IMG/VR virus record: IMGVR_UViG_3300028653_000014
Span: 1 to 64,000 of that record
DNA length: 64,000 nucleotides
Direction: 5' to 3' (one strand)
DNA from: a virus
This document shows, piece by piece, positions 4,453-63,892 of the stretch; the first letter of the stretch is position 1, and each line of letters starts with the position of its first letter. The notes beneath the pieces are model-generated. The model was not told the origin of the DNA. It was given only the letters and a program-made list of their open reading frames with translations, and searched no databases. The translations under genes and the position numbers were made by a program.

Positions 4453-4901
4453 CTATGGAGTCACGCGCGCGTTACTCATCGTGAACCGTCTCAGACCCTG
4501 GCCGCCTCGGTACGGGATCGGCTTGACCGGGGTCGGGTTCTCCAGCAGCCAGTGGAACTGGCCCGGCTCGGCCCACGGGCTGTCGCTGTCCCTCACGACG
4601 TCGACTAGCTCGACGTGGCCCAGGATGACGCCGCGCGGCTCGTCGGCACCAGGGCGTCCGACTCTTCGATGCCAAGCTCCCGCGCGGCCATCACCCGGTG
4701 GTTGCCCGACAGGACCTCGAACGTGTCGTCGTCGTGCGGGCGGACGAGGATCGGTGCCAGGAACCCGTCGCGCTGCATCGAGTCCTTCAACGCGTCCATC
4801 TGGGCCTCGGAGAGGTACTGCGGGTTTCGTTTCAGCGCGACCAGCTTGTCGACGCGCAGGTAGAGGAGTTCGCCCTTGTCAGGAACCGTCTGTGCGCTCA
4901 C
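4453..4901 (-). pseudogene. ParB-type domain running out of frame into the C-terminal half of an ASCH domain
   Basis: From a GTG at 4901 (GTGA overlap) the first frame gives a ParB/sulfiredoxin N-terminal fold: LRVDKLVALKRNPQYLS, PILVRPHDDDTFEVLSGNHR and VMAARELGIEE. After about residue 85 this frame becomes poor and stops at 4605. The next frame instead gives PRGVILGHVELVDVV, SDSPWAEPGQFHWLLENP and PIPYRGGQGLRRF, the typical second half of an ASCH domain, ending at 4453. One extra base in the GGG at 4652-4654 would fuse the two into 149 residues. The ASCH half lacks its usual N-terminal part, so this looks like a chimera, a damaged gene or both. An operator-like site lies in the last codons (4461-4474). 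Confidence 0.5.
4461..4474. promoter_or_regulatory. Operator-like inverted repeat, site 1
   Basis: TCACGCGCGCGTTA, matching TNACGC-NN-GCGTNA on all defined bases. It lies in the final codons of the ASCH frame, where it is read as Asn-Ala-Arg-Val-Thr, six bases before that stop. Confidence 0.6.
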
Positions 4902-5122
4902 GTAAGCCTCCACACCGCGTCGATGAGATACCAGTAGAGGTGAGCGATGACCGTCAGTACCGCGACGCTCAGAACGATGCAGACGCCGATGGCGACTAGC
5001 AGGATGATCCATCCGATCCGACGGCCGAATCGGTACATCGCGGGGTGAGCGGTACGCAGGTGAGCACTGGCGTCGACGGGTGGCGCCGCCGGTTTCAGCC
5101 CGAGATCGGGGATGTGCGGCAT
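4898..5122 (-). CDS. Single-pass membrane protein, 74 residues
   Basis: A Pro-rich N-terminus, a basic stretch (YRFGRRIG) and one long apolar helix (WIILLVAIGVCIVLSVAVLT) followed by an aromatic region, so one transmembrane segment with the N-terminus likely inside. It overlaps the HNH gene upstream (TGATG) and the ParB-type gene downstream (GTGA). Role unknown; size and topology would allow a membrane-associated regulator or a small lysis accessory. Confidence 0.6.
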   Translation of the reverse strand: MPHIPDLGLKPAAPPVDASAHLRTAHPAMYRFGRRIGWIILLVAIGVCIVLSVAVLTVIAHLYWYLIDAVWRLT

Positions 5123-5532
5123 CAGGCGACCATCCTGTCACGGACGGGATACTCCCGCTCGATGACGTAAGCGAAGCCAAGATCGGCGGCGAAACTGATG
5201 GCCGCGAGCGGGATCAGTTCGAGCACGATCGGCTGTATCCGGGAATGGTGTCTGGAATGTGCTCGTGTACAGATTCCCAGACCATTGGGCAGCGCCCACA
5301 TCAGTTCGCGCAGCAGATCGGTGTGCGCGTCCTCGTCGAGATACTGCTCGTGCGCGACCGCGGACACGTAGCGTCGGATGATCTGGGCACGCAGGATGTG
5401 ATGGCCCACGACAATGCCGCGGCATTGCTCCTCGATGTTAGGGCATACCCGACAGCCGAGCGCGGTTGTCCGGCGCCGCCACTCCTTCGACGCTTCGATC
5501 TCCAGGTTCTTCGTCGCGACCTTGGTCCTCAC
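5122..5532 (-). CDS. HNH endonuclease, 136 residues
   Basis: CRVCPNIEEQC, GIVVGHHILRAQIIRR and NGLGICTRAHSRHHSR provide the paired Cys, the His-His and the C-terminal His-His of an HNH nuclease. The N-terminal 30 residues are basic. It overlaps a small gene upstream. Homing or recombination nuclease; the spread of similar genes in this window favours homing. Confidence 0.65.
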   Translation of the reverse strand: MRTKVATKNLEIEASKEWRRRTTALGCRVCPNIEEQCRGIVVGHHILRAQIIRRYVSAVAHEQYLDEDAHTDLLRELMWALPNGLGICTRAHSRHHSRIQPIVLELIPLAAISFAADLGFAYVIEREYPVRDRMVA

Positions 5533-5726
5533 CGCCGCTTCCCCTTCACGCTGGTCGCCAGCTTGCCGCGGCCGAACGAATACCCCTTCTGGATCTGGGC
5601 GCCCTTCAAGATCGCGACCTGCGCCTTGTTCGCCGCCGCGTCGGGATGCGGGACAGCGATCAGCGGGTCGAGCCCGGCCGTCTTGCGCGCCTGCGCGAGT
5701 CTCTGCCAGTCCGTCCGCTTGCCCAT
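5529..5726 (-). CDS. Hypothetical basic protein, 65 residues
   Basis: I start it at the ATG at 5726, where it overlaps the nuclease stop (TGATG), giving a compact basic protein (MGKRTDWQRLAQARKTA and a KLATSVKGKRR tail). The longer frame upstream lies inside the nuclease gene. The charge suggests nucleic-acid binding; no motif. Confidence 0.5.
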   Translation of the reverse strand: MGKRTDWQRLAQARKTAGLDPLIAVPHPDAAANKAQVAILKGAQIQKGYSFGRGKLATSVKGKRR

Positions 5727-6181
5727 CAGAGGGATGCTAGCCAGTCGTCGTAGCGGCAGCCGTGGATCGTCCACAGGCTGTTCGGTATCCACGTGCCGAG
5801 CGTGGCCGACGTGAGTGCCCCGACTGCCACCTCCGTCGCCGCCGGGTAGCGGAACGTGCTGCGACTGCCGAGCACCTTCGCGACCTCGTCATAGTCGGAC
5901 GGGCGCCACAGGTACACCTCTGACCCGGCTTTCGCTAGCCCGCTCATGAACACGATCTGCCGTTCGGATGGCTTGTTCTTCTCGGTCTTCAACTCCGCGA
6001 AGATCGTCCGGTCCCGCCACATCGTCCGGTCGGGGAAACCCGGGGCGCTCCCTTTCGAGCGAAGCGTGTGATAGCTCTGCCAGCCGAGAGTCGTGGCGAC
6101 GCCTTTGTTGGCGCCGAAGACGAATGCGTCCCATTCCCGTTCGATCATGTTGCGGAGATCGATCGGCGCGTGGAGCGGCAT
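5726..6181 (-). CDS. VRR-NUC family nuclease, 151 residues
   Basis: The core GSAPGFPDRTMWRDRTIFAE followed by LKTEKNKPSERQ gives the PD...ExK metal-binding residues (Asp, Glu and Lys) and the downstream Gln of VRR-NUC enzymes, a PD-(D/E)XK group that cuts branched or duplex DNA. A YLWRPSDYDEV segment, also usual in this family, follows. It lies downstream of the HerA-type ATPase and a ParB-like protein, so it may act with them on DNA ends or recombination intermediates; that coupling is inferred. Confidence 0.75.
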   Translation of the reverse strand: MPLHAPIDLRNMIEREWDAFVFGANKGVATTLGWQSYHTLRSKGSAPGFPDRTMWRDRTIFAELKTEKNKPSERQIVFMSGLAKAGSEVYLWRPSDYDEVAKVLGSRSTFRYPAATEVAVGALTSATLGTWIPNSLWTIHGCRYDDWLASL

Positions 6182-6387
6182 CAGAATGTCTGCTCGTCCT
6201 GGAACATGAGCACTTGGCCGTACGTGAACTCTCGGCCCTCAGTGTCATGAAGGACGAGTTGCGCGAGCGGCACCGCCGAACCGGTGAGGGATGTTGCCGT
6301 CAGCCCGAGTACCAGTTCGGCGACTGTGCCGCCCAGCGCGGGGTCGAGTTCGACGTTCGACCCGTCTTGGAGAACCGCGCGAACCAT
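6181..6387 (-). CDS. Hypothetical protein, 68 residues
   Basis: Small beta-rich protein (NVELDPALGGTVAELVLGL, then EGREFTYGQVLMF). TGATG junctions on both sides tie it to the nuclease downstream and to the gene upstream. No recognised domain. Confidence 0.6.
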   Translation of the reverse strand: MVRAVLQDGSNVELDPALGGTVAELVLGLTATSLTGSAVPLAQLVLHDTEGREFTYGQVLMFQDEQTF

Positions 6388-6734
6388 CAGACCGGCAGCG
6401 GGTCGTCCAGCCCAGTGAGGCGTTGCGGCTGCGGCCAGCCTTCCGGCTCATCCGACGGTGGGGACGACGGCATCGGAACGGTGTTCAGCCCGGTCACGAT
6501 CGTCTCGACCTTCGGCGTGCGTGGCTTCCAGGCGTTCTCGGACACCGCGACGCAGATCGGCGGCGGCGTCTTGCCGTAGAACAGCCGGATCGCGTGGTCG
6601 CGGTCACGTGCCTCTCGTGAGCCGACGAACCGCCAGACCATCAGGTTCTCGTCGGACTCCAGCACGTAGAACCGGGTCACGGTCGACAGCGGAGGCGCGA
6701 CCAGTGTCGTCGCCTGATTTTTCGTTTCTGTCAT
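6387..6734 (-). CDS. Hypothetical protein, 115 residues
   Basis: The ATG at 6734 follows the upstream TAG by two bases, and GGAGGAG upstream is a good ribosome-binding site; the longer frame is rejected. A globular N-terminal half (TVTRFYVLESDENLMVWRF) is followed by a Pro-rich, probably disordered tail. No family recognised. Confidence 0.6.
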   Translation of the reverse strand: MTETKNQATTLVAPPLSTVTRFYVLESDENLMVWRFVGSREARDRDHAIRLFYGKTPPPICVAVSENAWKPRTPKVETIVTGLNTVPMPSSPPSDEPEGWPQPQRLTGLDDPLPV

Positions 6735-6736
6735 GG

Positions 6737-14574: not shown

Positions 14575-14723
14575 GACTTCTCCTTCGGCTGTCGCCCGCC
14601 GCCGGGGCACGATTTGCCGCGACCCATGTGGCCGCCGAACGGGTTGAAGTGCCTCTTGACGAGACCGGCATCGTTCAGACGCACGATGATCCCGCACTCT
14701 GCGCAGCGGATGGGTTCAGTCAT
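14571..14723 (-). CDS. Small zinc-finger-like protein, 50 residues
   Basis: CAECGIIVRLNDAGLVKRHF and a later GKSCPGG give a Cys2-His-Cys arrangement like a degenerate C2H2 finger. Basic C-terminus. ATG start within an 8-bp overlap with the upstream gene. Confidence 0.6.
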   Translation of the reverse strand: MTEPIRCAECGIIVRLNDAGLVKRHFNPFGGHMGRGKSCPGGGRQPKEKS

Positions 14724-16853: not shown

Positions 16854-16867
16854 TCACGCGCGCGTGA
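16854..16867. promoter_or_regulatory. Operator-like inverted repeat, site 5
   Basis: TCACGCGCGCGTGA, a perfect palindrome, in the intergenic stretch 20 bp above the -35 box of the leaderless promoter. The rest of the 123-bp gap holds no gene that I can see. Confidence 0.65.
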
Positions 16868-16922: not shown

Positions 16923-17528
16923 TCACGGTAAAGCCGCCCGAGTCAGATGACGTGCTTCCACGTTCGACGCAGAATCATGTCCCTGATCGTCGTGTTCTAC
17001 AACACCATAACTCCTGCCCAGCGAACGCATCGACTCGCCGGATTGATGACGGATGCGTATCTCTCTAACGGTCGCTTCATCGAACTTCGCAAAAGGAAGC
17101 TCTGCGCCGCGTTTTATGAACTCCGGCTTGCGACGTGACGGGTTCTTGTCACCTAGCAGTTTCTTGGACATGGCTGCTCTGGGTTCGATCAGACGGCCTT
17201 TTTTAATCGCATCCTGGGAGTTGTCTGCCCCTGTACCGAGAAAGAGGTGGCCTGGGTTCACGCAGCGCGGATTGTCGCAGTGATGTAGAACCAGGAGTCC
17301 CTCGGGGATTTCTCCGTATGTGACCTCCCACGCCACTCGATGGGCAAGAGCCGTCTTGCCCTTCACCTTGAACTTCCCGTAACTGATCTGGTTCCCTCGG
17401 CGATTAGAAGTCGCCAGCCAGATCCAGCATCCTTCTGAATCTCGTCGGTCAACCTTCATCCAGAACCTCTCGGCGAGAGTCAGGGTCTGAACGAAGCATC
17501 CACCCACGGAAACGACGGGCGCCCTCAT
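16923..17528 (-). pseudogene. HNH homing endonuclease with frameshifted C-terminal helix-turn-helix
   Basis: An HNH_3-type nuclease: AERFWMKVDRRDSEGCWIWL, core LLVLHHCDNPRCVNPGHLFL, then GTGADNSQDAIKKGR. The C-terminal recognition helix starts normally (RSLGRSYGV) but this frame then turns to noise. The neighbouring frame carries the expected continuation NTTIRDMILRRTWKHVI with a stop at 16943. One base too many around 16995-17001 explains it. The nuclease domain is intact but target recognition would be lost. ATG overlaps the upstream TGA. Confidence 0.7.
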
Positions 17529-21658: not shown

Positions 21659-21672
21659 TCACGCGGGCGTTA
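21659..21672. promoter_or_regulatory. Operator-like inverted repeat, site 6
   Basis: TCACGCGGGCGTTA. Its minus-strand TAA is the stop codon of the small Cys-containing gene next to it. Confidence 0.65.
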
Positions 21673-21921
21673 CCCGAGGATGCGCTGCTTGCCGGGTGCG
21701 AGATAGTGGTACGTCTCCCACCACCCGTCACAGCCGGGACGTGCGCAGACGCGCCACGACTCCATCAGCGCACCGATGTTCGGGTCGTAGTCGTGTCTCT
21801 CCGGCCCCCACTTGTGGCCGAGGAGACGACACCGCCACGTCTTGACCGGGTACGAGAGTACGTAGAGGGCATCGCGCCAGCCCGCATCCCGTGACCAACG
21901 CAGGAAGGCAATCGGCCTCAC
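21670..21921 (-). CDS. Small Cys/Trp-rich protein, 83 residues
   Basis: WRCRLLGHKWGPERHDYDPN followed by WRVCARPGCDGWW: a His/Cys set typical of short zinc-binding proteins found in many actinophages ('CxxLGHxW'). The GTG overlaps the upstream stop. The stop codon lies in inverted repeat site 6. Last gene of its operon. Confidence 0.6.
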   Translation of the reverse strand: MRPIAFLRWSRDAGWRDALYVLSYPVKTWRCRLLGHKWGPERHDYDPNIGALMESWRVCARPGCDGWWETYHYLAPGKQRILG

Positions 21922-23382: not shown

Positions 23383-24305
23383 GACGCCTCCTCGCCGAAC
23401 GGGATCTCATCCGCCGCGGCCTGCTCACTCGGAGAGAGGCCTGGTAGCCCGCCGCCGGGTGCGTAATGACCGAACACGGGCCGCTCGTCCTCGTCGGGAC
23501 TCATCCGCCACTCAGGCCCCGGCAGCGAGATACCGTCCAGGACGGCCGCCCACGCCTTCTGCACGTCCGTACGGGACACAGGAGGCATCTGGGCCGGGTC
23601 GACCGCTTCACGCAACGCCACAACCGCGGCGGCGGCCTTGGCGCCCAGTTCGGCCTTCTGCTCGCCCGTGAGCGCCGACGACTCGCGCACCTTGTAGAGA
23701 AGCTCGGACGCGTCCTGCACCCAGACGGGCCAGCCGAGCGAGTCACCGTACACGGCGGCCCACTCGAAAATCTCCGGCCACGACTTCGGCGCCGCGGGCT
23801 TCGCTGCACGTCCTCGGCCGCGAGTCTCCTCTGCCGTCTCGCCGTCAGGGTCGGCGAACTCCTTGCTGGATACCGCGAACGACTGCGCGAGCATCGACTT
23901 GAACGCCATCGTCATCGCTTTCGACGTCGCCTTGTCGCCCATATCGGTGCCCTCACCGTACGACGACCCCTCCACGAAATCCCCGGCGGCCCCGTAGAAC
24001 CGATATCCGACGTGCAGGCTGACCTCGTACATCGTCTTGCCCTGACCGGTCGTCCGTTCGCTCGTGACGCGCTCCAGGATCGTCGGCAAGCAGAACACGC
24101 CGTGCTTCGCGAGGAGCGGGTTCAGCGCGTTCATCACATCGTCGTGCCCGCGGAACATGAAGTTCTGTTGCTCGTTTCGACTGTCCTTCCCGATCGCCGG
24201 TAGCTCCGCGAGCACCGCCCACATCCGCTGGTAAATAGTGCGATCGTCGAACGCAGGCTCTCTCCACGGGGTAACGATCTCCTCCACCATCACAGACTCA
24301 GTCAT
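23379..24305 (-). CDS. ERF-family single-strand annealing recombinase
   Basis: Residues 25-160 match the ERF fold: MWAVLAELPAIGKDSRNEQQ, FMFRGHDDVMNALNPLLAKH, the VSLHVGYRFY strand and GEGTDMGDKATSKAMTMAFK, the conserved GxxxxDKA signature. ERF proteins anneal complementary single strands in phage recombination and replication-linked repair. The second half is acidic and helical and probably recruits partners. The SSB gene is close upstream, as usual for an annealing module. Start at the ATG overlapping the TGA of the gene before it; a longer frame exists but is noise. Confidence 0.85.
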   Translation of the reverse strand: MTESVMVEEIVTPWREPAFDDRTIYQRMWAVLAELPAIGKDSRNEQQNFMFRGHDDVMNALNPLLAKHGVFCLPTILERVTSERTTGQGKTMYEVSLHVGYRFYGAAGDFVEGSSYGEGTDMGDKATSKAMTMAFKSMLAQSFAVSSKEFADPDGETAEETRGRGRAAKPAAPKSWPEIFEWAAVYGDSLGWPVWVQDASELLYKVRESSALTGEQKAELGAKAAAAVVALREAVDPAQMPPVSRTDVQKAWAAVLDGISLPGPEWRMSPDEDERPVFGHYAPGGGLPGLSPSEQAAADEIPFGEEAS

Positions 24306-27590: not shown

Positions 27591-27604
27591 TAACGCGCGC
27601 GTGA
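27591..27604. promoter_or_regulatory. Operator-like inverted repeat, site 7
   Basis: TAACGCGCGCGTGA, two bases after the stop of the transglycosylase-like gene and 45 bases before the next gene. Confidence 0.65.
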
Positions 27605-31440: not shown

Positions 31441-31623
31441 CTACTCCAACTCCTGCGAGGTTTCCGCGGTCACGCCAGCGTTACCGGCCACAAGCACGAG
31501 GTTGCCAGCGGCAATCTGCCCCTGCATCCACCGATCCGCGAGTTGCTCCGCGCTGAGCGTCACGATGTCGCCCGGGTGGGCATCGCCGATGTTCACCGTC
31601 ACCCGGTAGTCGGCGTCGTCCAC
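31441..31623 (-). CDS. Small hypothetical protein, 60 residues
   Basis: A GTG start follows the tail gene upstream. Beta start (YRVTVNIGDAHPGDIVTLS) then a helix. The last 15 codons include an inverted repeat of the dispersed family, translated as Asn-Ala-Gly-Val-Thr. Longer starts overlap the tail gene and are noise. Confidence 0.5.
   Translation of the reverse strand: MDDADYRVTVNIGDAHPGDIVTLSAEQLADRWMQGQIAAGNLVLVAGNAGVTAETSQELE
31470..31483. promoter_or_regulatory. Operator-like inverted repeat, site 8
   Basis: TCACGCCAGCGTTA, with a CA centre, inside the coding end of the small gene. Confidence 0.5.
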
Positions 31624-35720: not shown

Positions 35721-35734
35721 TCACGCGCGCGTTA
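35721..35734. promoter_or_regulatory. Operator-like inverted repeat, site 9
   Basis: TCACGCGCGCGTTA, in the 30-bp gap between two tail genes of the same strand, just after the stop of the upstream one. Confidence 0.65.
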
Positions 35735-43228: not shown

Positions 43229-43242
43229 TAACGCGCGCGTGA
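43229..43242. promoter_or_regulatory. Operator-like inverted repeat, site 10
   Basis: TAACGCGCGCGTGA, next to promoter-like boxes in both directions, in the spacer between the connector genes and a plus-strand HNH gene. Confidence 0.6.
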
Positions 43243-43317: not shown

Positions 43318-44220
43318 ATGTGCGGATGCGGTCAGAAGACCAATCTCGCCCGGTACAACGATCACGAGAAGGGGTATGTGCTCGGTCAGCCGATGCGCTA
43401 TCGCCTCGGCCACGCCTTGGCGCGCACGCCGGTTATGCCGCTCGTGGCTCCTAATCCGTCCGGCTATTGCGAATGCGGATGCGGCGCAAGCACGCCCGCG
43501 GCGAAGAGAACCAATCGTCAGTTCGGACATCTAAAGGGACACCCCGTCCGCTTCATAGCAGGTCATCAACTCAGGAATCTCTGGGAGCCGTCCCAAAATC
43601 TCACTGCTCTCTGTGCTTGCGGGTGCGGTGGTCGGACGCGTTCAGTGAAATGGGGGAACGCCTCCAAAGGGCTTTCCCGCGGTCAGGCTCAGAAGTTCAT
43701 CCGCGGCCATCAACAGCGGAAACCAGTCGCAATCCAGGAAGACGAATATCTAGTCGCCGATCTCGGCTTCGACACTCCATGTTGGGTCTATCTCGGCCTG
43801 CTCGACCCGAAGGGCTACGGCATTCGGCACCGAACCGGAACGGGCACCGCACGTGCTCACCGTCAGTCGTACACGGAGTTCGTTGGTCCTATCCCATCAG
43901 GGAAGTCAATCCATCATCGTTGTCGTCACCCCGCGTGCATCAACCCAACGCATCTCGAAGCCATGCCAGTCTCCGAGAACACCGAACTCACACGAGGAAC
44001 TCGACCGCCCCGCGCTGTCCGTCTACGTGTCTTTGAACGAGACGGTCACCGTTGCCGACGATGCGGTGTGACGAAGGAACTCAGCATCGACCACATCGTG
44101 CCGCTCTGTCGCGATGGCACCCACGACGAGGCGAATCTTCAGACTCTCTGCCGCTCATGCAACAGCAAAAAGGGCCGCTACTACTTCCTCGACGAACGCC
44201 TCGCTACAGCAACCCTCTAA
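43318..44220 (+). CDS. HNH homing endonuclease with triple Cys/His repeat domain, 300 residues
   Basis: Residues 1-130 contain three copies of a CxCG-x(n)-G-x-P-x-x-F/Y-x-x-GH module: CGCGQKTNLARYNDHEKGYV, CECGCGASTPAAKRTNRQFG and CACGCGGRTRSVKWGNASKG. The middle has an HNH_3 core (GKSIHHRCRHPACINPTHLE) and the end a second HNH (DGHRCRRCGVTKELSIDHIV, LQTLCRSCNSKKGRYYF), so two nuclease-like domains in one chain. It is on the strand opposite to the structural genes and shares its TAA/TAG end with the convergent gene. Confidence 0.8.
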   Translation: MCGCGQKTNLARYNDHEKGYVLGQPMRYRLGHALARTPVMPLVAPNPSGYCECGCGASTPAAKRTNRQFGHLKGHPVRFIAGHQLRNLWEPSQNLTALCACGCGGRTRSVKWGNASKGLSRGQAQKFIRGHQQRKPVAIQEDEYLVADLGFDTPCWVYLGLLDPKGYGIRHRTGTGTARAHRQSYTEFVGPIPSGKSIHHRCRHPACINPTHLEAMPVSENTELTRGTRPPRAVRLRVFERDGHRCRRCGVTKELSIDHIVPLCRDGTHDEANLQTLCRSCNSKKGRYYFLDERLATATL

Positions 44221-47709: not shown

Positions 47710-48486
47710 GTGACCAGCAGCGAGCTTTGCACCTGCACCCTTTGCACGGCAGGCGAGCCTGTTCCGTACGGCACCTGCCACTGCGCGTGCGGCGAGAAAA
47801 CGAACCCGGCGCCGTTCACGAACCCCGCCAGGGACTACGTGAAGGGCGAGCCGGTGAAGTACGTCAAGGGCCACGGCTCCCGCTCGAAGGACTGGAAGAA
47901 GCGTTGGAACAGCGAGGGACCAAACCCATCCGGCATCTGCCAGTACAACGGCTGCGATCAGCCGACCCTGCTCTCCGCGAACACCGTGTGGCATCTCGGG
48001 ATCATCCGAGGAGAGCCGCTCCGTATGTGCCCTAAACACAAGCACCCCGGACGGAAGAAGGCCACTCTCACCTTCGACATTGAGGATCGTGGATACATCA
48101 GCGACGAAGGGGTGGCTAGCGACTGCCACATCTTCAATCGTGACGCCCGCGACGGGAAGAACGGCGTATACGGAGTCATCGGCGGAAAGTCGCGGCTCGC
48201 CCATATCGTCGCATGGGAAGCGCTCAACGGCGCTCTGCCGCGCGGTCTCACCCTCGACCATCTCTGCGAGATCAAACTCTGCGTCAACCCCGATCATCTC
48301 CGCCTCTCCACTAGAGCGGTACACGCCAAGCGGCACGCTGACCTGCGGATTGACAAGAACGTGATCTCGGCTATCCGCGACGCCCTGCGTACAAGTGATC
48401 TCACTCAGAAGCAGATCGCCGCGAAGTTCGGCGTCAGCCTCAGCTACGTGGGCAGAGTCCGCTCCGCCATGAAGCGCGAGTCCTAG
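47710..48486 (+). CDS. HNH homing endonuclease with C-terminal helix-turn-helix, 258 residues
   Basis: The N-terminus carries CHCACGEKTNPAPFTNPARD and YVKGEPVKYVKGHG, the same Cys/His module that is tripled in the HNH gene at 43.3 kb. The nuclease is HNH_3: GDKN-like IVAWEALNGALPRGLTLDHL, CEIKLCVNPDHLRLSTRAVH. A C-terminal helix-turn-helix (QKQIAAKFGVSLSYVGRVRS) would read DNA. It has AGGGAG before a GTG start and its own terminator, and lies opposite to the capsid operon. Confidence 0.85.
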   Translation: MTSSELCTCTLCTAGEPVPYGTCHCACGEKTNPAPFTNPARDYVKGEPVKYVKGHGSRSKDWKKRWNSEGPNPSGICQYNGCDQPTLLSANTVWHLGIIRGEPLRMCPKHKHPGRKKATLTFDIEDRGYISDEGVASDCHIFNRDARDGKNGVYGVIGGKSRLAHIVAWEALNGALPRGLTLDHLCEIKLCVNPDHLRLSTRAVHAKRHADLRIDKNVISAIRDALRTSDLTQKQIAAKFGVSLSYVGRVRSAMKRES

Positions 48487-50490: not shown

Positions 50491-50517
50491 GTAACGCGCG
50501 CGTTACCGCGCTACGGT
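50491..50517 (+). promoter_or_regulatory. Operator-like inverted repeat, site 11, covering the -35 region of a plus-strand promoter
   Basis: GTAACGCGCGCGTTAC (50491-50506) is a perfect 16-bp palindrome, the best copy in the window. TACGGT at 50512-50517 is a likely -10 box, and an ATG follows seven bases later, so the mRNA would be leaderless. The repeat occupies the -35 position. Confidence 0.7.
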
Positions 50518-52588: not shown

Positions 52589-52594
52589 CGTCTC

Positions 52595-53214: not shown

Positions 53215-53318
53215 CCAACACGATTTGCTACCCGCACATCACGAAGCCTGGCGTCCGCTACTGCGTGCGATGCGGCGCTTCGCTGCCGGTCTTTCGAGCG
53301 CCGGTAACGCCCGCGTGA
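53211..53318 (+). CDS. Tiny Cys-containing protein, 35 residues
   Basis: GTG start in a GTGA overlap. CYPHITKPGVRYCVRCGASL gives a Cys-His-Cys-Cys set able to hold one zinc. The stop TGA is the end of inverted repeat site 12. Confidence 0.5.
   Translation: MTNTICYPHITKPGVRYCVRCGASLPVFRAPVTPA
53305..53318. promoter_or_regulatory. Operator-like inverted repeat, site 12
   Basis: TAACGCCCGCGTGA. Its last four bases are the GTGA that ends one gene and starts the next. Confidence 0.65.
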
Positions 53319-53686
53319 TCCCTCGCGGCCACGTTCACCGGCTCGTCCCGATCTCCGTCTACGACCGGCCCGACCGGTCGACGGTCATCCAGTCCCGCTG
53401 CCAGGCCATCATGCCGTCCGGGGCCGCCCCCGACCTCGTTTGCTCACTGGAGGAGGAGCGGGTGTTCCACGGGCAGACACCGATCTCGATCCGGTTCAAG
53501 TTCGGCGGCATGTGGCTGAGCGCACTCGACCTGCTGCGACTGCTGCCCGTTGCCGTTCAGGAGTGCCCGAGTTGTCACGGAGAACCAACGCTGTTGCGCT
53601 GCACGATCTGCGCCGGTACGGGAGTTGTTGAACGGGAGGGCGACACCTTCGTGGCGTTGAAGCTCCCTGATCTGAAAGTGACATGA
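53315..53686 (+). CDS. DnaJ-type zinc-ribbon protein, 123 residues
   Basis: Starts at the GTG inside inverted repeat site 12. The second half holds CPSCHGEPTLLRCTICAGTG, a four-Cys ribbon; the first half is a beta-rich domain (HRLVPISVYDRPDRSTVIQS). Function unknown. Confidence 0.6.
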   Translation: MIPRGHVHRLVPISVYDRPDRSTVIQSRCQAIMPSGAAPDLVCSLEEERVFHGQTPISIRFKFGGMWLSALDLLRLLPVAVQECPSCHGEPTLLRCTICAGTGVVEREGDTFVALKLPDLKVT

Positions 53687-54258: not shown

Positions 54259-54443
54259 TCGGCGGCATGGTCGGGCGCACGTATCTGCTCCCCGACGGCC
54301 GTCTCGGCCGTGTCGTCGCGCGCTGGTCGGGGAAGGGATGCCCGCGGAACGTGCTCGTCGCGTTCGAGGACGGCAGCATGACGTGTCGGCCCTTCCGGGG
54401 CCTTCGTCGCCTCCCTGCGCCGTATACTCCGCCCCGTGATTGA
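54255..54443 (+). CDS. Small basic beta protein, 62 residues
   Basis: GRTYLLPDGRLGRVVARWSG and RNVLVAFEDGSMTCRPF form a KOW/SH3-like barrel pattern with a Pro/Arg tail. Coupled by ATGA to the gene before and overlapping the lysozyme gene by 8 bases. Confidence 0.55.
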   Translation: MIGGMVGRTYLLPDGRLGRVVARWSGKGCPRNVLVAFEDGSMTCRPFRGLRRLPAPYTPPRD

Positions 54444-55939
54444 CCAGACGCAGCCGGGCGCCACGTGGGGGCTTGGCGATGTGTTTCTGCAGCCGCGGCA
54501 GGTGGCCGATCTCGCGTATCGACACGGTGTCACGAACGCCGCCGACTTGGCGGTCATCATCGCGATCTGTTACGCCGAGTCTCAGGCAGGGGTGAACGCG
54601 TGGCACGACAACCTAGCGGCGGACGGCGTGACGGTTCTGAGCCGCGACGTCGGTCTTTTCCAGATCAACATCCCGGCCAGTGCGATCGGCGGACCTCAGG
54701 AGGAGGCTCTGTACGACCCGGAGAAGAACGCGGCAGCGATGTTCGCGCTCTACAGCCACCGCCGCTTCGAGCCGTGGGCGTCGTTCAACTGCGTCCCGCT
54801 TGATGCCCAGATTTTGACAAGGCGCGGCTGGCTTGACTCCACCGACGTACGCGCTGGGTTCGATCAGACACTGGGCTATGACACGGCGCTCGAACAGCTT
54901 AGATGGACGTCGATCCTTCACGTCGGACAGCTAGAAAAGCAGGTCACGATTGAGATAGATGGCCGTCAGTGGAAGGCGCGAGTAACGCCGGGGCATCGCT
55001 GGTCCCTAGTCCGCAACTGGTATACGCGACGGACGAGGACACCGCGAGAGGAACTTGCCCCAACGAATGAGATTCGTCCACATGATCGTATTCGGCTAGC
55101 GGCAGTCGCTGTCGGAGGCGATCTCCCCATCTCCCCGCAAGAAGCAGCGGTGATTGCGTGGCTGCTTGGAGACGGGAGTATGCGCACACGTCAGAGCGAC
55201 GGAAGACGCCGGGCGTTTATGGTCGAGAGCGACGAGGCAGACCTCGTTGGCAAGGCGTGCATCTTGCAGTCGAAGCCCTCAGGGGTCGCCGCATTACAAG
55301 CACTCCTAGAACCCGTCCCTCACCGCGCCACACAAACTGCGCACATCGCCGAGGGGCAAAACTATCGGCGCTCGCGATTCACGCTTGCCCCAGACTATGT
55401 ACGGGACGTCCTTGCTCGTGCCGAGATCGACCAGCGTGGCCTGATGGGATTCGTGTTCGGACTAAGCATGGAGGCGAGACAGGCGTTTGTTGAGGCATTC
55501 GTGATGGCCGAGGGTGGTCATGAACCCACAGGGTCGTATTTCACCCAGAACGAGGGGGCCACTACTTGATGCTGCGATTGTCGCGACGTACATGAACGGC
55601 AAGCGACCGAGTGTCCACGTCAACGCGCCACATCGGTCAGACATATCGCGCAGCGTCCACCTCTGCGAACCGTATGCAGCCGGTTCGCGCCTCCAGTTCG
55701 GAGTCGAGCAAGTCGAAGATGTCTGGTGTCCTACGACTGAACTTGGCACGTGGACGATGCGCCAGAACGGACGCGTAATGCTGACGGGGAACTCCGCCGT
55801 GTATCTGAACGACGGCTACACGGGGAAGGCCGCGCTCGGGATGTGCAACTTCGCGGTCGAACGGTTCAACACGGCCGGGGCCAAGCTGCCGTTGCCGCTG
55901 TTCACGCTGCCCGATCTGCGCAAGAAGCTCCCGCACTAA
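54436..55939 (+). pseudogene. Virion lysozyme/transglycosylase interrupted by an intein that carries a frameshift
   Basis: The outer parts (118 plus 48 residues) form a lysozyme-fold protein: VIIAICYAESQAGVNAWHDN with the catalytic Glu, SRDVGLFQINIPASAIGG, then AAAMFALYSHRRFEPWASFN and, after the intein, SAVYLNDGYTGKAALGMCNF. This is a soluble lytic transglycosylase type, which cuts wall glycan during entry or lysis. As sequenced, the first frame stops at 55569 inside the intein; the splicing end and C-terminal extein lie one frame over. Removing one G from the five at 55554-55558 restores a single protein. Unless corrected, no mature lysozyme is made. Confidence 0.75.
54790..55792 (+). mobile_element. 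Intein with LAGLIDADG endonuclease in the lysozyme gene, frameshifted
   Basis: Block A begins at Cys1: CVPLDAQILTRRGWLDSTDV; block B has the histidine in KARVTPGHRWSLVRNWY; two LAGLIDADG-like motifs follow (AAVIAWLLGDGSM and QAFVEAFVMAEGG); the end is TWTMRQNGRVMLTGN before Ser+1. About 334 residues after correction. The penultimate residue is Gly, not His, as in the other intein of this window where it is Ser. The frameshift lies just after the second endonuclease motif and before the C-terminal splicing block. Confidence 0.8.
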
Positions 55940-55950
55940 CGCGTGCGTTA
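55937..55950. promoter_or_regulatory. Operator-like inverted repeat, site 13, shared by two convergent stop codons
   Basis: TAACGCGTGCGTTA. Read on either strand it begins with TAA: the stop of the lysozyme gene on the plus strand and of the glycosyltransferase-like gene on the minus strand. Confidence 0.7.
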
Positions 55951-56613
55951 CCGGGTCCAGTCGATGGCCGCGACGTCACACTCATCGCAGTCGCCGACGT
56001 AGCAGCACGAAGTTCTTCCCTCGTCGAGGCCGTTCATCGTGCGGCGGCCGATCAGGCTGATCGATCGATCCTCGTGCTGGACGAGGTTCGGGACGGTCGA
56101 GATCGGCTCGACGCCGACGTGTCTGGCCCAACGGTTCACGATCTCGTCGTCGGCGGTGAAGTCGGGCCGCCATCCTTGCACGTCGACGAACTCCAGCAGA
56201 CTCGGGATCATCACCGTCGGCCATGCCACCGCGACCTGCGCCAAGAAGTGCGCCGCGGGTAGCTCGGCCCACGGTTCGTCCCGTTCGCAGGCGGCCCACA
56301 CGGCACGTGCGTGAGTCTCCGGGCGCCCTGCGACGAAGAACAGGATCAGACGGTCGCTGCGGGCCTCTACGGCCGCGTGTGCCGCGTCGCGGAACCCTGG
56401 GCAGACGGTTGTGTCGTCTTGAAGACTCACGACGTGCGTGGCTTCCTGCGGTCTCGTCTCCAGCAGATGCCGCAGGGTCCTCCAGGGTGACTTGATCGGG
56501 GCGTCCGGCTCCGGGTCGTAACACACCTGGCCGCCGACCTCCTGCGCGAGCGTCTCGGCCATCAGCGTCCGGGTCGGGTGCGCCTGCACCCTGAATGCGA
56601 TGTCGACGGTCAC
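55948..56613 (-). CDS. Glycosyltransferase-like (GT-A fold) protein, 221 residues
   Basis: The start, VDIAFRVQAHPTRTLMAETL, and THVVSLQDDTTVCPGFRDAA with the QDD pair resemble small actinophage glycosyltransferases; a conserved ALPSLLEF-like WPTVMIPSLLEFVDVQGWRP segment and a FTADDEIVNRWARHVG segment follow. These may modify phage tail or capsid proteins. It heads, at its 5' side, the tail fibre genes, which fits modification of fibres. GTG start. Confidence 0.6.
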   Translation of the reverse strand: MTVDIAFRVQAHPTRTLMAETLAQEVGGQVCYDPEPDAPIKSPWRTLRHLLETRPQEATHVVSLQDDTTVCPGFRDAAHAAVEARSDRLILFFVAGRPETHARAVWAACERDEPWAELPAAHFLAQVAVAWPTVMIPSLLEFVDVQGWRPDFTADDEIVNRWARHVGVEPISTVPNLVQHEDRSISLIGRRTMNGLDEGRTSCCYVGDCDECDVAAIDWTR

Positions 56614-56625
56614 GCGGCCGTGACT

Positions 56626-58185
56626 TTACAGCAGGCCGAGCGCGAGCATCTCTTCCAACTCCGCCTGCTCCCGCTCCGCACGCGCGTCGACGGTCGGCAG
56701 GTGTTTGTCGAGCCAGTCGGCGGGGAACCCGGAGCCGCCGCCGAGCGCGACCGTGACGGGCGGTGGCGGAACGTGGCCGCCGGACACGGTGACGGCCAGG
56801 GTCGATGTGCCCGCCAGGACGGGGGTGAGGTACTGGAACCGTGTGAGGGTCGCGGCGAGCGTGCTGGTGCCCGTCAGGGTCGGCCGGATGTAGACGACGC
56901 CCAGCAGCGACGCGGTCAGACTCGATGTGCCGACGAACGTCGGGGTCAGCAGCTTGTACTCGGCCAGTCCGGCGTCCAGTGTCGAGGTGCCGCTGAGCGC
57001 GACGGTGATCTGCTGGAACTCGGTCAGCGCGGCACTCAGCGCGGACGTGCCTGCCAGATCGACGGTGACGTACCGGAACTCCGTGACGGCGGCGGCGAGA
57101 CTCGATGTACCGGCCAGCGTGACCGTGATGCGCTTCTGCTCCGCAACACTCACGCTCAGAGACGAACTGCCCGCGAGGGTCGGGGTCAGATAGACGAGTT
57201 CCCCCAGGGTCGCCGTGAGGGTGCTGGCCCCGGCCAGGGCAACGGTGATGTGCTTGTACTCCGTGACGGCTGCCGACAACGACGAGGTGCCTGTCAGCGA
57301 CACCGTGATCTGCTTGAACGAAGTCAGGGTTGCGGTCAGCGACGATGTGCCCGCGAGAGCCGGGGTGATGTGCTTGAACTCCATCAGGGACGCGGCGAGC
57401 GTGCTCGTGCCTGCGAGTGCAACGGTGATCTGCTTGTCCGCCGTCAGGGCCGCCGTCAGCGACGAGGTTCCAGCCAGGGTGACGGTGATGGCTTTGAACT
57501 CGGTGACGGTCGCGGTCAGCGAACTTGTCCCGGCCAGCGTGACCGTCAGGTTCTTATCCGACGTCAGGGAGGCGCTGAGAGACGACGTACCGGTCAACGA
57601 GACCGTCAGACGCTTCTGCTCCGTCAGGGTCGCCGTGAGGCTGCTGGTGCCCGCGAGGGACACCGTGAGATTCTTGTCCTCGACTAGCGAAGCGCTGAGG
57701 GCCGATGTTCCCGCGAGGGCGACCGTGATCTGTTTGAACTCCGTGAGGCTTGCCGCAAGGCTGCTCGTTCCTGCCAGTGTCACCGTGAGGTTCTTGTCCT
57801 CGACTAGAGACGCCGACAGACTCGACGTGCCCGCCAGAGCAACCGTGATTCGTTTCTGCTGCGTCAGCGAGGCCGTCAACGCCGACGTCCCGGCCAGCGT
57901 GACCGTCAGGTCGTCGTCCTCTACGAGCGCCGCCGTCAGTGACGAGGTGCCCGCCAACGCGACGGTGATCTGCTTGTATTCCGTCAGCGTCGTGCTGAGA
58001 CTTGAGGTACCGGCCAGGGCAACGACGAGGGAGTCGATGGCTGTTTCAGCCGGAACCTGCTGGCGCATCGGCTCACCAGCGCGGAAGTAGTCGAACTCGA
58101 ACTCGCTGCTCTTACCCGCGAAGGCGCCGAACGGCTCCCCCGCGCGGAAGTAGTCGAGTTCGTTTGGGTTAGCCGCCGAGGCCAT
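56626..58185 (-). CDS. Fibre-like repeat protein, 21 tandem units of 20 residues
   Basis: 519 residues. The N-terminus has two copies of YFRAGEP. From about residue 55 to 475 there are 21 units of the form TVALAGTSSLTASLTEFKQI, each 60 bp at DNA level but varied enough to show old divergence or selection against identical repeats. The C-terminus (WLDKHLPTVDARAEREQAEL) is helical. The repeats, with Gly-Thr-Ser turns every 20 residues, fit a beta-solenoid or a fibrous stack. Located among tail genes, so likely a surface fibre or decoration. ATG overlaps the upstream TGA. Confidence 0.75.
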   Translation of the reverse strand: MASAANPNELDYFRAGEPFGAFAGKSSEFEFDYFRAGEPMRQQVPAETAIDSLVVALAGTSSLSTTLTEYKQITVALAGTSSLTAALVEDDDLTVTLAGTSALTASLTQQKRITVALAGTSSLSASLVEDKNLTVTLAGTSSLAASLTEFKQITVALAGTSALSASLVEDKNLTVSLAGTSSLTATLTEQKRLTVSLTGTSSLSASLTSDKNLTVTLAGTSSLTATVTEFKAITVTLAGTSSLTAALTADKQITVALAGTSTLAASLMEFKHITPALAGTSSLTATLTSFKQITVSLTGTSSLSAAVTEYKHITVALAGASTLTATLGELVYLTPTLAGSSSLSVSVAEQKRITVTLAGTSSLAAAVTEFRYVTVDLAGTSALSAALTEFQQITVALSGTSTLDAGLAEYKLLTPTFVGTSSLTASLLGVVYIRPTLTGTSTLAATLTRFQYLTPVLAGTSTLAVTVSGGHVPPPPVTVALGGGSGFPADWLDKHLPTVDARAEREQAELEEMLALGLL

Positions 58186-60047: not shown

Positions 60048-60056
60048 AGGGTCTCC

Positions 60057-60788
60057 TTAGTTGATCGAAGCGAGCGTTCGCAGGTGGTTCGTAAGCTGCG
60101 TCGTCGCCGTGCCGACGGAGAACTGCGCCGTTACCGACAGCGCCGAAGCAGCGACCGTTGAGAGCGACGAGACAACAGCCGGAACGTTCGCGCCTCCGGC
60201 GGTCATCGTGTAGATCGACTGCGGCGCAGAATCGGCCGCGACCGGCACGTCGTTCAGGAACACCTTGCCCATGCAGTACGCCGAACCTGCCGCGCCGATG
60301 GAGCGCCAGCACAACGTCGCCTGCAGCGAGCCGGTGTAGTTCGACCGAGCCGTCGCGGAGAGAGCGATGGCGGCGGTGGCGGCGAGCAGGGTCCCGGCGA
60401 CTCCACCCCAGCGGATACGGAACGTCAGGGTGCCCGGCGTGGTCACGACGTTCGACACATCGAACTCGCACTCGATCTTGAAGTACGCGCCCGAGTAGAT
60501 GTGCGGGTCGTTCGCGGCGAACGTGTAGTCCGGCGTGATGATCGCTTCGGCCGTCGAGTTCAGGATCTGCGTGCCGTCAGCGATGTCGGACGCGAGGATC
60601 TCGAAGAATCCCTGCTTCGTCGCGTTCGGGCCGGAACCACGCGGATGCGCTCGCGCCCGGTCGAGCTGCTCAAGCACCGATACGGGCAACCGCCCTTCCG
60701 CATAGGCGTCGTTCAAGTAGTCGCGGTAACGGTTGGCCTCGACCGGCTTGCCGGTACGAGGATCGAGGATAAGTCCGGGATTCATCAT
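60057..60788 (-). CDS. Minor tail protein, 243 residues
   Basis: N-terminus MMNPGLILDPRTGKPVEANR and a helix, then a beta-sandwich-like domain with an EFDVSNVVTTPGTLTFRIRW strand and SLQATLCWRSIGAAGSAYC. Similar jelly-roll domains are found in tail-associated receptor-binding proteins. Its ATG overlaps the gene upstream. Confidence 0.55.
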   Translation of the reverse strand: MMNPGLILDPRTGKPVEANRYRDYLNDAYAEGRLPVSVLEQLDRARAHPRGSGPNATKQGFFEILASDIADGTQILNSTAEAIITPDYTFAANDPHIYSGAYFKIECEFDVSNVVTTPGTLTFRIRWGGVAGTLLAATAAIALSATARSNYTGSLQATLCWRSIGAAGSAYCMGKVFLNDVPVAADSAPQSIYTMTAGGANVPAVVSSLSTVAASALSVTAQFSVGTATTQLTNHLRTLASIN

Positions 60789-61372
60789 GCCTCGCTGCTG
60801 GTCAGGCCGGAGGGCTGCACGACAGGCGTGTCGAGCGGGTTGATCGCCGTCGACGTGATCGACCCCCAGTAGATGATGTTCCCGGCACCGATGGTGACCG
60901 AGTCCAGGACGACATAGAACGTTGCCGTCTGGAGCGTCCCTGCATTCGTCGGGAACGTGATCGCGGTCGCGTTCGTGATCGCCGCCCCGGCCGTCGACGT
61001 CGGGAAGTTCGTCGTGTTCGCGGTGACCGTCACCCGTGTGTAGCCGGTGTACGACGCCTCACCCGAGGTCGCGCCCGTCGAGGCCGCCGTGATCGTCGAC
61101 GTCCAGAGCGCGTGGAAGCTCGAAGCGGGGAACGAAAACGCGGCGGCGTTCCAGTACGCGTTCAGCAGCTTGCTGGCGTAATACTGGGACTTGCCGGACG
61201 CCCAGACGACGAGGTCTTTCAGGCTGCGGCGGAAGCCCCGCGTGATGACGGCGCCGGGGCGCAGAGACGGCAGCCACGGCGTCTCGATGATCGCGCCGTC
61301 AGGGCAGAACGTCAGGTTGACGCGGTTGCCGCGCCGGTTGTGCCACTGGATCTGGTCGAGTGCGATCTCCAC
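60785..61372 (-). CDS. Tail or head accessory protein, 195 residues
   Basis: A GTG start. The first 70 residues are a globular domain (NRVNLTFCPDGAIIETPWLP, GFRRSLKDLVVWASGKSQYY), the rest is Thr/Ala-rich beta sequence (GYTRVTVTANTTNFPTSTAG; TFYVVLDSVTIGAGNI) like a fibre or decoration module. Lies between the AAA+ gene and the minor tail gene. Confidence 0.55.
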   Translation of the reverse strand: MEIALDQIQWHNRRGNRVNLTFCPDGAIIETPWLPSLRPGAVITRGFRRSLKDLVVWASGKSQYYASKLLNAYWNAAAFSFPASSFHALWTSTITAASTGATSGEASYTGYTRVTVTANTTNFPTSTAGAAITNATAITFPTNAGTLQTATFYVVLDSVTIGAGNIIYWGSITSTAINPLDTPVVQPSGLTSSEA

Positions 61373-61374
61373 GT

Positions 61375-61782
61375 CTACTCACCCCTCCGCTTCTTCAGCA
61401 TTTCCTGGATCGCCTCGTACTCGTTCTGGTCAACCTGCAGACCCGGCTGCACGCCGTCCTCCAGCACGATGTTCGCGAAGCGGCGATGCTTCCGCTCATG
61501 CCACGACCGGGTGTCCGCGTCCGTGGCGAGCCGGTAGCGCGAGTTGCCCTCGTCGTCGTCTTCGAGAACGAGCCGTTGGTCGGGAACCTCATGCGGGTGG
61601 GCGACCACGGCGGCGAGTTCGGCCTCGGCCTCGGCAATCGCGTCCTTGTCGCCGTTCGCGGTCGCGAAGTCAAGCTGTGCCTGCGCGATAGCGGTACGCC
61701 GCGTCTTGTCGGCCTCGTCCGTCTTGACGGTGTAGTGCCAACCGTCCATGTAGACGATCGGGCCGAACTCAGTTTCAGTCAT
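61375..61782 (-). CDS. Hypothetical helical protein, 135 residues
   Basis: A charged helical protein (AQAQLDFATANGDKDAIAEA) with a C-terminal helix (EYEAIQEMLKKRRGE). Its start overlaps the ATPase gene by the ATGACTGA junction. No domain recognised; position suggests a virion or assembly factor. Confidence 0.55.
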   Translation of the reverse strand: MTETEFGPIVYMDGWHYTVKTDEADKTRRTAIAQAQLDFATANGDKDAIAEAEAELAAVVAHPHEVPDQRLVLEDDDEGNSRYRLATDADTRSWHERKHRRFANIVLEDGVQPGLQVDQNEYEAIQEMLKKRRGE

Positions 61783-63892
61783 CGATGTCCTCCTGGACGT
61801 AGACCTTCTCGCCCGTGACGGGGTCGAACTGGATTCGTACCTGCCGCGGCTTCACTTCCGCCGTGTGAGTGTGAACCTCAACCTGGGCGGGCGGCACGTT
61901 CACGACCGTCTCGGGGACGTTCACGACGACCGACGGTGCGGCCTGCTCCGGCACGGTGAAGTTCACGACCGGCGCCTCCGCGGCGGCGACATGCACGTCG
62001 ACCTGGGGGGCGGTCTGTTCCGGCACATGGACGGTGATCTGCGCGGGTTCCACCCGCACATTCTGCTCCGGCACGTTAACGGTGATCGGGGCGGCGGCCG
62101 TTTCGGGTCTGAGCGCGAACTGGCGGAGCGCCTCGATGGCAGCCGAGGCGAGGATGTCGCCCTGCGCGGAGCCGCGCTCCTGCACCGCCGACGCGACGAG
62201 CGCCATGACGCCCTGCGTGGTCGACAGGTGCGCGGCCTCCAACGTTGCGAGCGCCGCTCTGAGAGCGTCTGTGTCCATCGTTCCGGCGCCGACACCCGGT
62301 AGATCACCCAGCGAGGCGATGAGGCTCTCAGCGGACGGTACGGTCTCCTGGACGGGTTCTGGCGGCGTCAGGTCTTCCAGCACGATCGGCTCGGCCGCGA
62401 GCGCGAGCACCTCGGCGAACAGTTCGTCGGTCACGCCCGCGTTACCGGCGCGCTCGGTCACCCACTTGGCCGGGTTCTCCGGGTAAACGACCTGCGCGTC
62501 CCACCATCCGTCCGGGAGCGCCTCGGCCTCATGCTCGAAGTTGTCGACCCCGTCGATCGCGAGCATGTCGTCCTTGATCGGGTCAGGGTCGGTCCAGTCA
62601 CCGCAGACGTACAGCACCGTCTTCGTGTCTGGATTCCACGCCGTCTCGCCGTAGCCGCTGGCCTCATCCTGATGCTTCGCGGCGACCTTGGCGATCTGAA
62701 CGCCTACGTCCTGCGCAGCCGCGGCAGACATGGAGACGACCTGCTCGGGTAGCGCCGCTTCGCCTTCGGCCTTCCGCGCGTACAACTCCGCAAGCGTGCC
62801 GCCCGTCTCGACGGTCTCGCCAAGGAACGCGGACGCCTCGTCGGCGGAGAGCGGCCCAAACTCCAACTGTGACGCGCAGCGGCCCGGACGGCTGACCGCC
62901 GGGTGCAACGTCCCGAGTTCGTCGTTCGTCGTCACGAGCGCCAGCACCCGCAGCCCCTGACCGATCATCCCGTCGACGACGTTGAGCAGCCGCGACAGCC
63001 CCTGACCGTACGACTCCTTCGCGTTCGCCGCGAGCAGTTCCCCGGTGTCTTCCAGGATCAGCACCCGCCACTTGCCCTGCGGGTCGCCTTCGCTGTAGAC
63101 GTCACCGGTCGGCTCGTCGATCACGTCGTAACTGTCGGAGAGGAGCACACCGATCATGTAGGACGGGTCCTTGACGAAGAACGCGTCCGGGTCGGTGATG
63201 TAGTGGAACTCAGCCCACTTCGACCATTCCGACGCGAGCGCACGGAGCGCCCATGACTTGCCGGTTCCCGGTTCGCCCTGCCAGAGGATCAGTTGGCCGT
63301 CCCGCTTCGGCTCGTCCCACGACATCAGGTCGGCAAGTTCGGTGCGGACGGCGGCGGTGTAGTTGTGCTCGATGCCGTCCCACTGCGCCGACTCGATCTT
63401 CCGGAGGCGTGACTCGGGGCCGAACTTCCCGAGCGTCCAGAACGTGATCGGCACCTTCCCCTCCGTCGAGTTCAGGTAGGACGCCGGGAACTGCGCCCTG
63501 AACGCCCCGCACATCGCCGAGGCCGCCGCGCGGTCGTCTGACGCAACCTGGACGCGTAGCCACCCCCAGGAGAGCGACACGAGCGACAGCACGCCATCGG
63601 GGGAGCAGACGACGGCGCTCTCCCCGTCCCGGAACAACGTGCCTGGGATGTCTCCGAGACCGGCCGACTCGCACGGCCACCGGTCAGAGACGATCTCGTT
63701 GTGGTTCGCGGCAATCGCGAGGCTCAGGAATCTCCGCTCCGCGAGGCTGCCCTGCGTCAACTCGTAGTTCGAGACGACCTCCGGCTCGGCTGTCCCGGCG
63801 GCTAGAAGCGCCTCGTGGACGGCGCGGCGGCGTGCCCTCACGGACGGGTGACGAACGAGCGCCGGACGGCCGATGCTGACGGTGCTACCCAC
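61775..63892 (-). CDS. AAA+ ATPase with a virion-type C-terminal extension, 705 residues
   Basis: Residues 1-190 are a domain that I do not recognise, possibly related to the N-terminal part of DUF5925-type ATPases. The AAA+ module follows: Walker A LILWQGEPGTGKSWALRALA (201-220), Walker B WRVLILEDTGELLAANAKES, sensor 1 LVTTNDELGTLHPAV and an arginine finger SRPGRCASQLEF. The last 130 residues carry repeated strands: ITVNVPEQNVRVEPAQITVH, VPEQTAPQVDVHVAAAEAPV, FTVPEQAAPSVVVNVPETVV, ending in VRIQFDPVTGEKVYVQED. Such VPEQ repeats and endings are typical of phage portal and head morphogenesis proteins. An unusual mix for one protein; GTG start. Confidence 0.7.
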   Translation of the reverse strand: MGSTVSIGRPALVRHPSVRARRRAVHEALLAAGTAEPEVVSNYELTQGSLAERRFLSLAIAANHNEIVSDRWPCESAGLGDIPGTLFRDGESAVVCSPDGVLSLVSLSWGWLRVQVASDDRAAASAMCGAFRAQFPASYLNSTEGKVPITFWTLGKFGPESRLRKIESAQWDGIEHNYTAAVRTELADLMSWDEPKRDGQLILWQGEPGTGKSWALRALASEWSKWAEFHYITDPDAFFVKDPSYMIGVLLSDSYDVIDEPTGDVYSEGDPQGKWRVLILEDTGELLAANAKESYGQGLSRLLNVVDGMIGQGLRVLALVTTNDELGTLHPAVSRPGRCASQLEFGPLSADEASAFLGETVETGGTLAELYARKAEGEAALPEQVVSMSAAAAQDVGVQIAKVAAKHQDEASGYGETAWNPDTKTVLYVCGDWTDPDPIKDDMLAIDGVDNFEHEAEALPDGWWDAQVVYPENPAKWVTERAGNAGVTDELFAEVLALAAEPIVLEDLTPPEPVQETVPSAESLIASLGDLPGVGAGTMDTDALRAALATLEAAHLSTTQGVMALVASAVQERGSAQGDILASAAIEALRQFALRPETAAAPITVNVPEQNVRVEPAQITVHVPEQTAPQVDVHVAAAEAPVVNFTVPEQAAPSVVVNVPETVVNVPPAQVEVHTHTAEVKPRQVRIQFDPVTGEKVYVQEDIDD
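62431..62444. promoter_or_regulatory. Operator-like inverted repeat, site 14
   Basis: TCACGCCCGCGTTA within the ATPase gene, translated as Gly-Asn-Ala-Gly-Val-Thr, the same residues as at site 8. Confidence 0.5.

Follow-up and report, generated by a model that had tools for sequence, protein, structure and literature searches.

The conserved inverted repeats of phiC31, which are spread over an actinophage genome and are set beside the present sites by description only, offer one likeness for dispersed regulatory sites. In cluster A mycobacteriophages, which are temperate, a monomer binds the stoperators, each an asymmetric 13-mer (PMC9283540, PMC6550527). The long-range repression exerted by KorB requires its CTPase clamp domain (PMC11790492). 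LmbU is a homodimer with a helix-turn-helix (HTH) that represses some promoters, activates others, and inhibits its own gene; its palindromic target, CGCCGGCG, has been extended to TCGCCGGCGA (PMC6510168, PMC10763038). LmbU binds TCGC-CG-GCGA (PMC10763038), and its HTH has been independently aligned with Spo0J (PMC6510168). Here, we describe a 14-bp palindrome, TNACGC-NN-GCGTNA, that recurs across the virus contig IMGVR_UViG_3300028653_000014 (83,069 bp), of which positions 1 to 64,000 constitute the window, i.e., the whole stretch of DNA under study. We propose, with a probability of about 0.6, that these palindromes serve as operators and that a homodimer of an LmbU-like regulator, encoded by the phage itself at 6737-7603 on the minus strand, binds them.

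The structural genes of this phage are of the actinophage type, and the virus that carries the sites is a soil actinophage. A near-identity search of INPHARED with 24 kb of the window returned no match and thus no close cultured relative.

Dispersed palindromes at gene junctions

The pattern occurs exactly 14 times in the window, at every position listed for exact matches in an earlier note made from the sequence alone. Dinucleotide shuffles predict 0.15 copies (largest count 2, none reaching 14), close to the note's rough figure of about 0.1 and well under one per 64 kb. Codon-preserving shuffles, in which synonymous codons are permuted, start and stop codons retained, and spacers shuffled, gave a mean of 1.66 and a maximum of 5 for the window, and a mean of 2.1 and a maximum of 5 for the record. 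A scan of the full 83,069-bp record raised the count to 18 exact copies, the additional four being located at 65448, 66577, 70530, and 78344, and the reversed control pattern gave 0 copies. The central two bases vary (GC, GG, CC, CA, and GT), and the half-sites are constant, as first described, except for A or C at position 2. One-mismatch copies in the window (1278, 39094, 41987, and 56610) are at chance level (4.0 expected with up to one mismatch); hence, the copy at 1278, once put forward as a further site, is not evidence, and 29256, listed as a decayed copy, has no more than a half-site. The dispersed operator system itself is real.

The sites span early, late, and tail genes, as the earlier note had stated, and favor gene junctions: only 4 of the 18 lie inside genes, though 79% of the record is coding (P = 5e-7, with gene edges that are approximate since the calls come from a simple in-house caller). 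Stop codons are supplied by the sites at 7654, 11724, 13669, 21659, 55937, 66577, and 78344, and predicted GTG starts also fall within those at 11724 and 53305. The LmbU-like gene begins 51 bp downstream of the site at 7654-7667 (TAACGCGGGCGTTA), which holds the stop of 7665-9407(-). At 11724-11737 (TCACGCGCGCGTTA), the palindrome combines the TAA stop of 11735-11878(-) with the GTG start of 10813-11727(-). Further stop codons are those of 13669-14067(-) at 13669-13682 (TCACGCGGGCGTGA), of 21670-21921(-) at 21659-21672 (TCACGCGGGCGTTA), and of two convergent genes at 55937-55950 (TAACGCGTGCGTTA). The site at 53305-53318 (TAACGCCCGCGTGA), among plus-strand genes, includes the predicted GTG start of 53315-53686. 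Intergenic copies are found at 16854-16867 (TCACGCGCGCGTGA), where a promoter-like TAGACA-16-TAGAAT follows 19 nt downstream on the minus strand; between two plus-strand genes at 27591-27604 (TAACGCGCGCGTGA); in the 30-bp spacer separating two tail genes at 35721-35734 (TCACGCGCGCGTTA); at 43229-43242 (TAACGCGCGCGTGA), 75 bp upstream of the HNH endonuclease gene 43318-44220(+); and at 50492-50505 (TAACGCGCGCGTTA), which precedes the major capsid gene by 150 bp. The remaining copies in the window are situated at 4461-4474 (TCACGCGCGCGTTA), within the weak predicted ORF 4453-4596(-); at 31470-31483 (TCACGCCAGCGTTA), close to the 3' end of 31441-31623(-) and 33 bp upstream of the next gene; and at 62431-62444 (TCACGCCCGCGTTA), inside gene 61775-63841(-).

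Twelve sites have unlike halves, i.e., one TAA-half and one TGA-half, and all 12 read TAACGC to GCGTGA along local transcription: nine belong to the minus strand, and at the remaining three, beside plus-strand genes, the orientation flips. Since stop, start, and valine codons force many of these sites (about four are free, the rest being bound by a stop, a start, or an Asn-Ala-x-Val frame), the orientation is suggestive only. Together with the number of sites, their placement at junctions, and their overlap with stop codons, it recalls stoperator-like silencing, in which a repressor at many junction sites would block elongating RNA polymerase in a prophage. The likeness in logic to stoperators that the earlier note had drawn is supported by the junction placement, by placements conserved in a relative, and by the partly coding-forced orientation. 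The sites are nevertheless palindromic rather than asymmetric 13-bp elements, and in the relative called G2 they are fully symmetric, with no unlike-half copies. Neither an integrase, nor ParA, nor a parABS system was found in the record, which may be incomplete, and a prophage search of 84,980 GTDB genomes yielded no capsid relative. Because integrase, ParA, and prophage relatives were not found, and with the reservation that the contig may be incomplete, a role in controlling the lytic program is more probable than silencing in lysogeny; we consider the latter improbable, and the suggestion of silencing or immunity found no support.

The sites are spaced more evenly than random, with a coefficient of variation of 0.45 here (P 0.0003) and 0.60 in G2 (P 0.01). 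Even spacing and the ParB/Noc-like HTH fold of the candidate binder would suit centromere-like or genome-organizing sites of the parS or Noc-binding-site kind. Against this, the search for a ParA motif was negative, the candidate lacks a match to the ParB N-terminal CTPase domain, and the spacing is no more even than random in two other relatives, G7 and G21, all the G7 sites being placed immediately in front of genes and confined to the non-structural half. Partition, also raised at the outset, is unsupported as the sites are spread instead of clustered in the manner of a centromere, and a genome-organizing role is very improbable.

Divergent palindromes in related phages

The comparison set consisted of ten IMG/VR genomes of 47-96 kb, obtained from capsid homologs, giving 11 genomes with this phage. 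G2 (IMGVR_UViG_3300036781_000236; pieces L010-L014), whose capsid protein is 57% identical, carries 22 exact copies of the fully symmetric TCACGC-NN-GCGTGA and only five one-mismatch copies. Other relatives have palindromes of different spelling, which emerged from unbiased searches for repeats of this kind. G7 contains 12 copies of CTACG-NN-CGTAG, all of them intergenic or at gene edges. G18 (pieces L169-L171) has six copies of GTACC-NN-GGTAC; G21, examined because of its LmbU gene, was then found to hold 13 copies of GAACC-NN-GGTTC, of which 7 are inside genes; and G13 has four copies of GAACC-NN-GGTTC, the weakest set. A 2-bp center is common to the palindromes of all five relatives, and the strong sets exceed mirror controls and Markov nulls. 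Among the relatives, whose scan the earlier note had called for, one has a set with the same core and four have sets spelled differently; because all of these share the 2-bp center, the sites are members of a diverging family of dispersed-operator systems.

In the same unbiased searches, G3, G15, G4, G19, and G23 yielded no palindromes resembling a set of operators. The palindromes of G15 were rejected as operators, since nearly all lie within one long repetitive gene, and CGGGCCCG or TCGCGA of G3 was rejected as mostly inside genes. A scan of IMG/VR with GGTNACGCNNGCGTNACC gave only single chance matches, and in a search with TCACGCNNGCGTGA plus CTATA, G2 was the sole match.

Some placements recur between this phage and G2, as had been asked of relatives with differing gene sequence; they were counted without a null, in phages that are about 50% identical in protein. 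Recurring positions include one in front of the capsid gene (at a distance of 152 bp in G2), one before the LmbU-like gene or its gene run, the own_66/67 cassette, the own_84 to own_86 gap, and the start of own_113. A site also flanks the G2 gene pair orthologous to that at 27591, the gap corresponding to 43229 contains two sites in G2, and the G2 ortholog of the gene around 62431 has a site at a different codon. The own_103/104 junction is likewise shared: it carries an exact site in G2 and the one-mismatch site TCACGCGGCCGTGA here (56610-56623), which is of note solely through this position.

GC-rich palindromes are able to form hairpins, and the sites might be hairpins, methylation targets, or selfish palindromes rather than operators. 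A free 2-bp center with arms of 5-6 bp should make a poor RNA hairpin, no conserved T-run follows the sites, and from relative to relative the sequence changes around an unvarying 2-bp center, mostly at junctions; such a non-operator origin is highly unlikely. By contrast, the proposal of a site for a dimeric protein is supported by the variable center, the junction placement, and the diverged sets in relatives.

The candidate binder and its possible mode of action

The 288-aa product of 6737-7603(-) was identified as the candidate binder by profile match, AlphaFold2, Foldseek, and phylogenetic profile. It matches the LmbU family profile NF038070 (E 4e-23, residues 103-260), as do its homologs (6e-15 to 9e-30), two remoter ones (G32 and G33) exceeding the curated cut-off of 125 bits. 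Its AlphaFold2 model (pLDDT 83) places an HTH at residues 153-179 (helices 153-163 and 167-179; block-mean pLDDT 76-96), followed by further helices. Foldseek relates the model to ParB, Noc, and Spo0J, with the best superpositions at 2.3-3.3 A over about 90-110 columns (probability 0.93-0.95). The protein is thus predicted to carry a ParB/Noc-like HTH; neither a Pfam match nor a match to the ParB N-terminal CTPase domain (ParB_N) was obtained.

Among about 118 gene families in the 11 genomes, the LmbU family has the best presence profile, occurring in 6/6 palindrome-bearing genomes and 2/5 others (G3 and G15). A 12-aa insertion beside the HTH is restricted to this phage and G2 among 22 LmbU sequences; the TNACGC site is likewise confined to these two, and the capsid tree makes this phage sister to G3, which lacks the site. 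The supported LmbU clade of G13, G18, and G21 (100/99) has similar half-sites (GAACC, GTACC, and GAACC). The inner CGC-NN-GCG is identical in the published LmbU target and in this phage, a coincidence of 1 in 64 in a fixed frame, and as far as sequence can tell, the palindromes fit a homodimer that binds palindromic DNA. Autoregulation would accord with the site located 51 bp before the LmbU-like gene; the nearest sites upstream of the LmbU genes or their gene runs in relatives are at 85517 in G2, 72534 in G7, and 53639 in G18.

Several observations weigh against this assignment. The protein scores 82 bits, under the curated cut-off, and is therefore named LmbU-like rather than a family member. 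The Foldseek E-values are weak (0.4-1.4), the lowest belonging to Raf1 with a poor rmsd, and the grouping of this phage with G2 is not settled by the LmbU tree apart from the 12-aa insertion. G3 and G15 have an LmbU-like gene yet no comparable palindrome; the G7 motif, predicted in G3 from their common LmbU group (93/82), is absent there; and eighteen remoter LmbU-positive phage contigs, many of them short and several with the LmbU-like part fused to an apparent methyltransferase, have no such palindrome. In a later test of prediction on three contigs, G49 gave just three copies of GTTACGTAAC, G48 one GAACCCAGGTAC, and G50 none. Finally, sigma-70-like promoters are not enriched near the sites of this phage (P 0.46). 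The pairing of the LmbU-like protein with the palindromes is thus a correlation seen within one lineage. A tblastn search of INPHARED with the LmbU relatives of G7 and G18 gave none, a search of IMG/VR with this phage's own LmbU-like protein gave none that was confirmed, and a literature search found no paper tying the LmbU family to phages.

The same operators could be read by another protein, e.g., a ribbon-helix-helix (RHH)-like protein, a small HTH protein (14123-14296), the winged-HTH replication initiator, or an unrecognized protein. The gene read as RHH-like (13253-13621, minus strand; 122 aa) encodes a protein that matches neither Pfam nor PHROG. A site precedes the gene by 48 bp here, and another follows its stop by 4 bp in G2. 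Homologs occur in G2, G13, G3, and G7; G3 is devoid of palindromes, whereas G18 and G21, where the palindromes are strong, yielded no homolog. The small HTH protein has a weak match to a 'late transcriptional activator' family but occurs mainly in G4, a genome without palindromes, and the replication initiator is limited to this phage and G2. The ParB_N protein and the small HTH protein hardly occur outside this phage. The RHH, ParB-like, and HTH proteins named in the earlier note are consequently poorer candidates than the LmbU-like regulator, and we regard another reader as unlikely.

In the mechanism that we favor, one ParB/Noc-type HTH of the LmbU-like dimer would read each half-site, with the free 2-bp center lying between them. 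The protein would occupy about 18 gene-junction sites genome-wide, including the one before its own gene, so that occupancy could set the transcription of many phage operons together and its own level by feedback, and regulator and operators may have diverged jointly in relatives into new specificities. As for the direction of regulation, we infer that repression or attenuation is somewhat more likely than activation, because the palindromes of G18 and G2 overlap promoter elements and junction sites could stop an elongating polymerase.

Five of the six G18 palindromes end at precisely 15 nt from the following ATG, with GATACT or GATAAT in the interval, an arrangement that is apparently that of a leaderless promoter whose spacer lies under the palindrome. 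At about six of the G2 sites, TGCTATAC is separated by about 21 nt from the beginning of the palindrome, and three others precede a good -35 element by 22-24 nt. Sigma-70-like promoters are enriched near the sites of G2 (P 0.003) and G18 (P 0.012), in contrast to this phage; accordingly, initiation appears to be the controlled step in G18 and part of G2, whereas initiation control, an elongation roadblock, or both could operate here. Some G18 palindromes come after terminator-like hairpins. A second, non-palindromic motif, CCTGCTATACGAA, is also repeated in G2 (e.g., at contig positions 24020, 25705, 56919, and 77927), at a distance of about 21 nt from several palindromes; it may be an extended -10 element. 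Three or four G2 sites further have the inverted repeat CTCRACC-NNN-GGTTGAG in the interval separating the palindrome from the -35.

Certain neighboring features were also observed. LmbU-like domains are fused to apparent DNA methyltransferases in phage contigs (L236:13363-14313, L237:14703-15785, L217:2838-4004, L221:1547-2608, and L229:5933-7150), where the HTH may be a targeting domain. The record site at 70530 lies near the 5' end of L005:3804-6755(-), which encodes a 983-aa protein with head-morphogenesis and RNA-ligase-like segments. The protein of 56626-58185(-) has degenerate tandem repeats (LAGTSSLTA...) and is likely a fiber or adhesin, and one of 59 scanned proteins matches an intein splicing domain. 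Related HNH-endonuclease-like genes, possibly mobile, are scattered at 43318-44220(+), 47710-48486(+), 16923-17528(-), and 9404-10090(-).

Comparison with known systems

The dispersed palindromes and their candidate binder hint at a seldom studied means by which a virus could govern its entire genome simultaneously. If the LmbU-like protein is the binder, each genome would provide up to about twenty defined targets for a phage branch of the poorly understood LmbU family, and half-site choice by a ParB-like HTH could be decoded from five or six regulator/site pairs that occur in nature. A broader and rather doubtful extension is that LmbU-like proteins are the master regulators of a non-integrating actinophage lineage, in which dispersed junction-fitted palindromes (a TAA stop in one half and, in the other, a TGA stop or a GTG start) control read-through from one operon to the next, and rapid joint divergence of HTH and operator creates orthogonal specificities; such a system would be a symmetric, ParB-fold counterpart of stoperators.

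The closest likeness is to LmbU of Streptomyces lincolnensis, with which the phage system shares a significant profile match, an HTH likened to that of Spo0J/ParB, a palindromic target with an inner CGC/GCG around a 2-bp center, and autoregulation, here suggested by the adjoining site. It differs in that the gene belongs to a phage and falls under the curated cut-off, in the HTH-side insertion of this phage and G2, and in the presence of about 18 strict gene-junction sites in 83 kb. KorB of plasmid RK2 is a ParB-fold transcriptional repressor with operators (OB) spread over a mobile genome; its CTPase clamp is without a match in the LmbU-like protein. ParB-parS systems are characterized by ParA, a CTPase-bearing ParB, and clustered sites; here no ParA motif was found, the candidate has no ParB_N match, and the sites are spread. 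The stoperators of cluster A phages, read by repressors such as those of L5 and TipsytheTRex, resemble the present sites in their twenty-odd genome-wide copies in short intergenic spaces, in specificity that varies between relatives, and perhaps in orientation, which here follows transcription at sites that are mostly constrained by codons. In contrast, the sites described here are palindromes with a ParB-like candidate binder, in a record in which no lysogeny genes were seen. If the proposed binder is correct, they would represent a second, unrelated protein solution to genome-wide phage control by dispersed operators.

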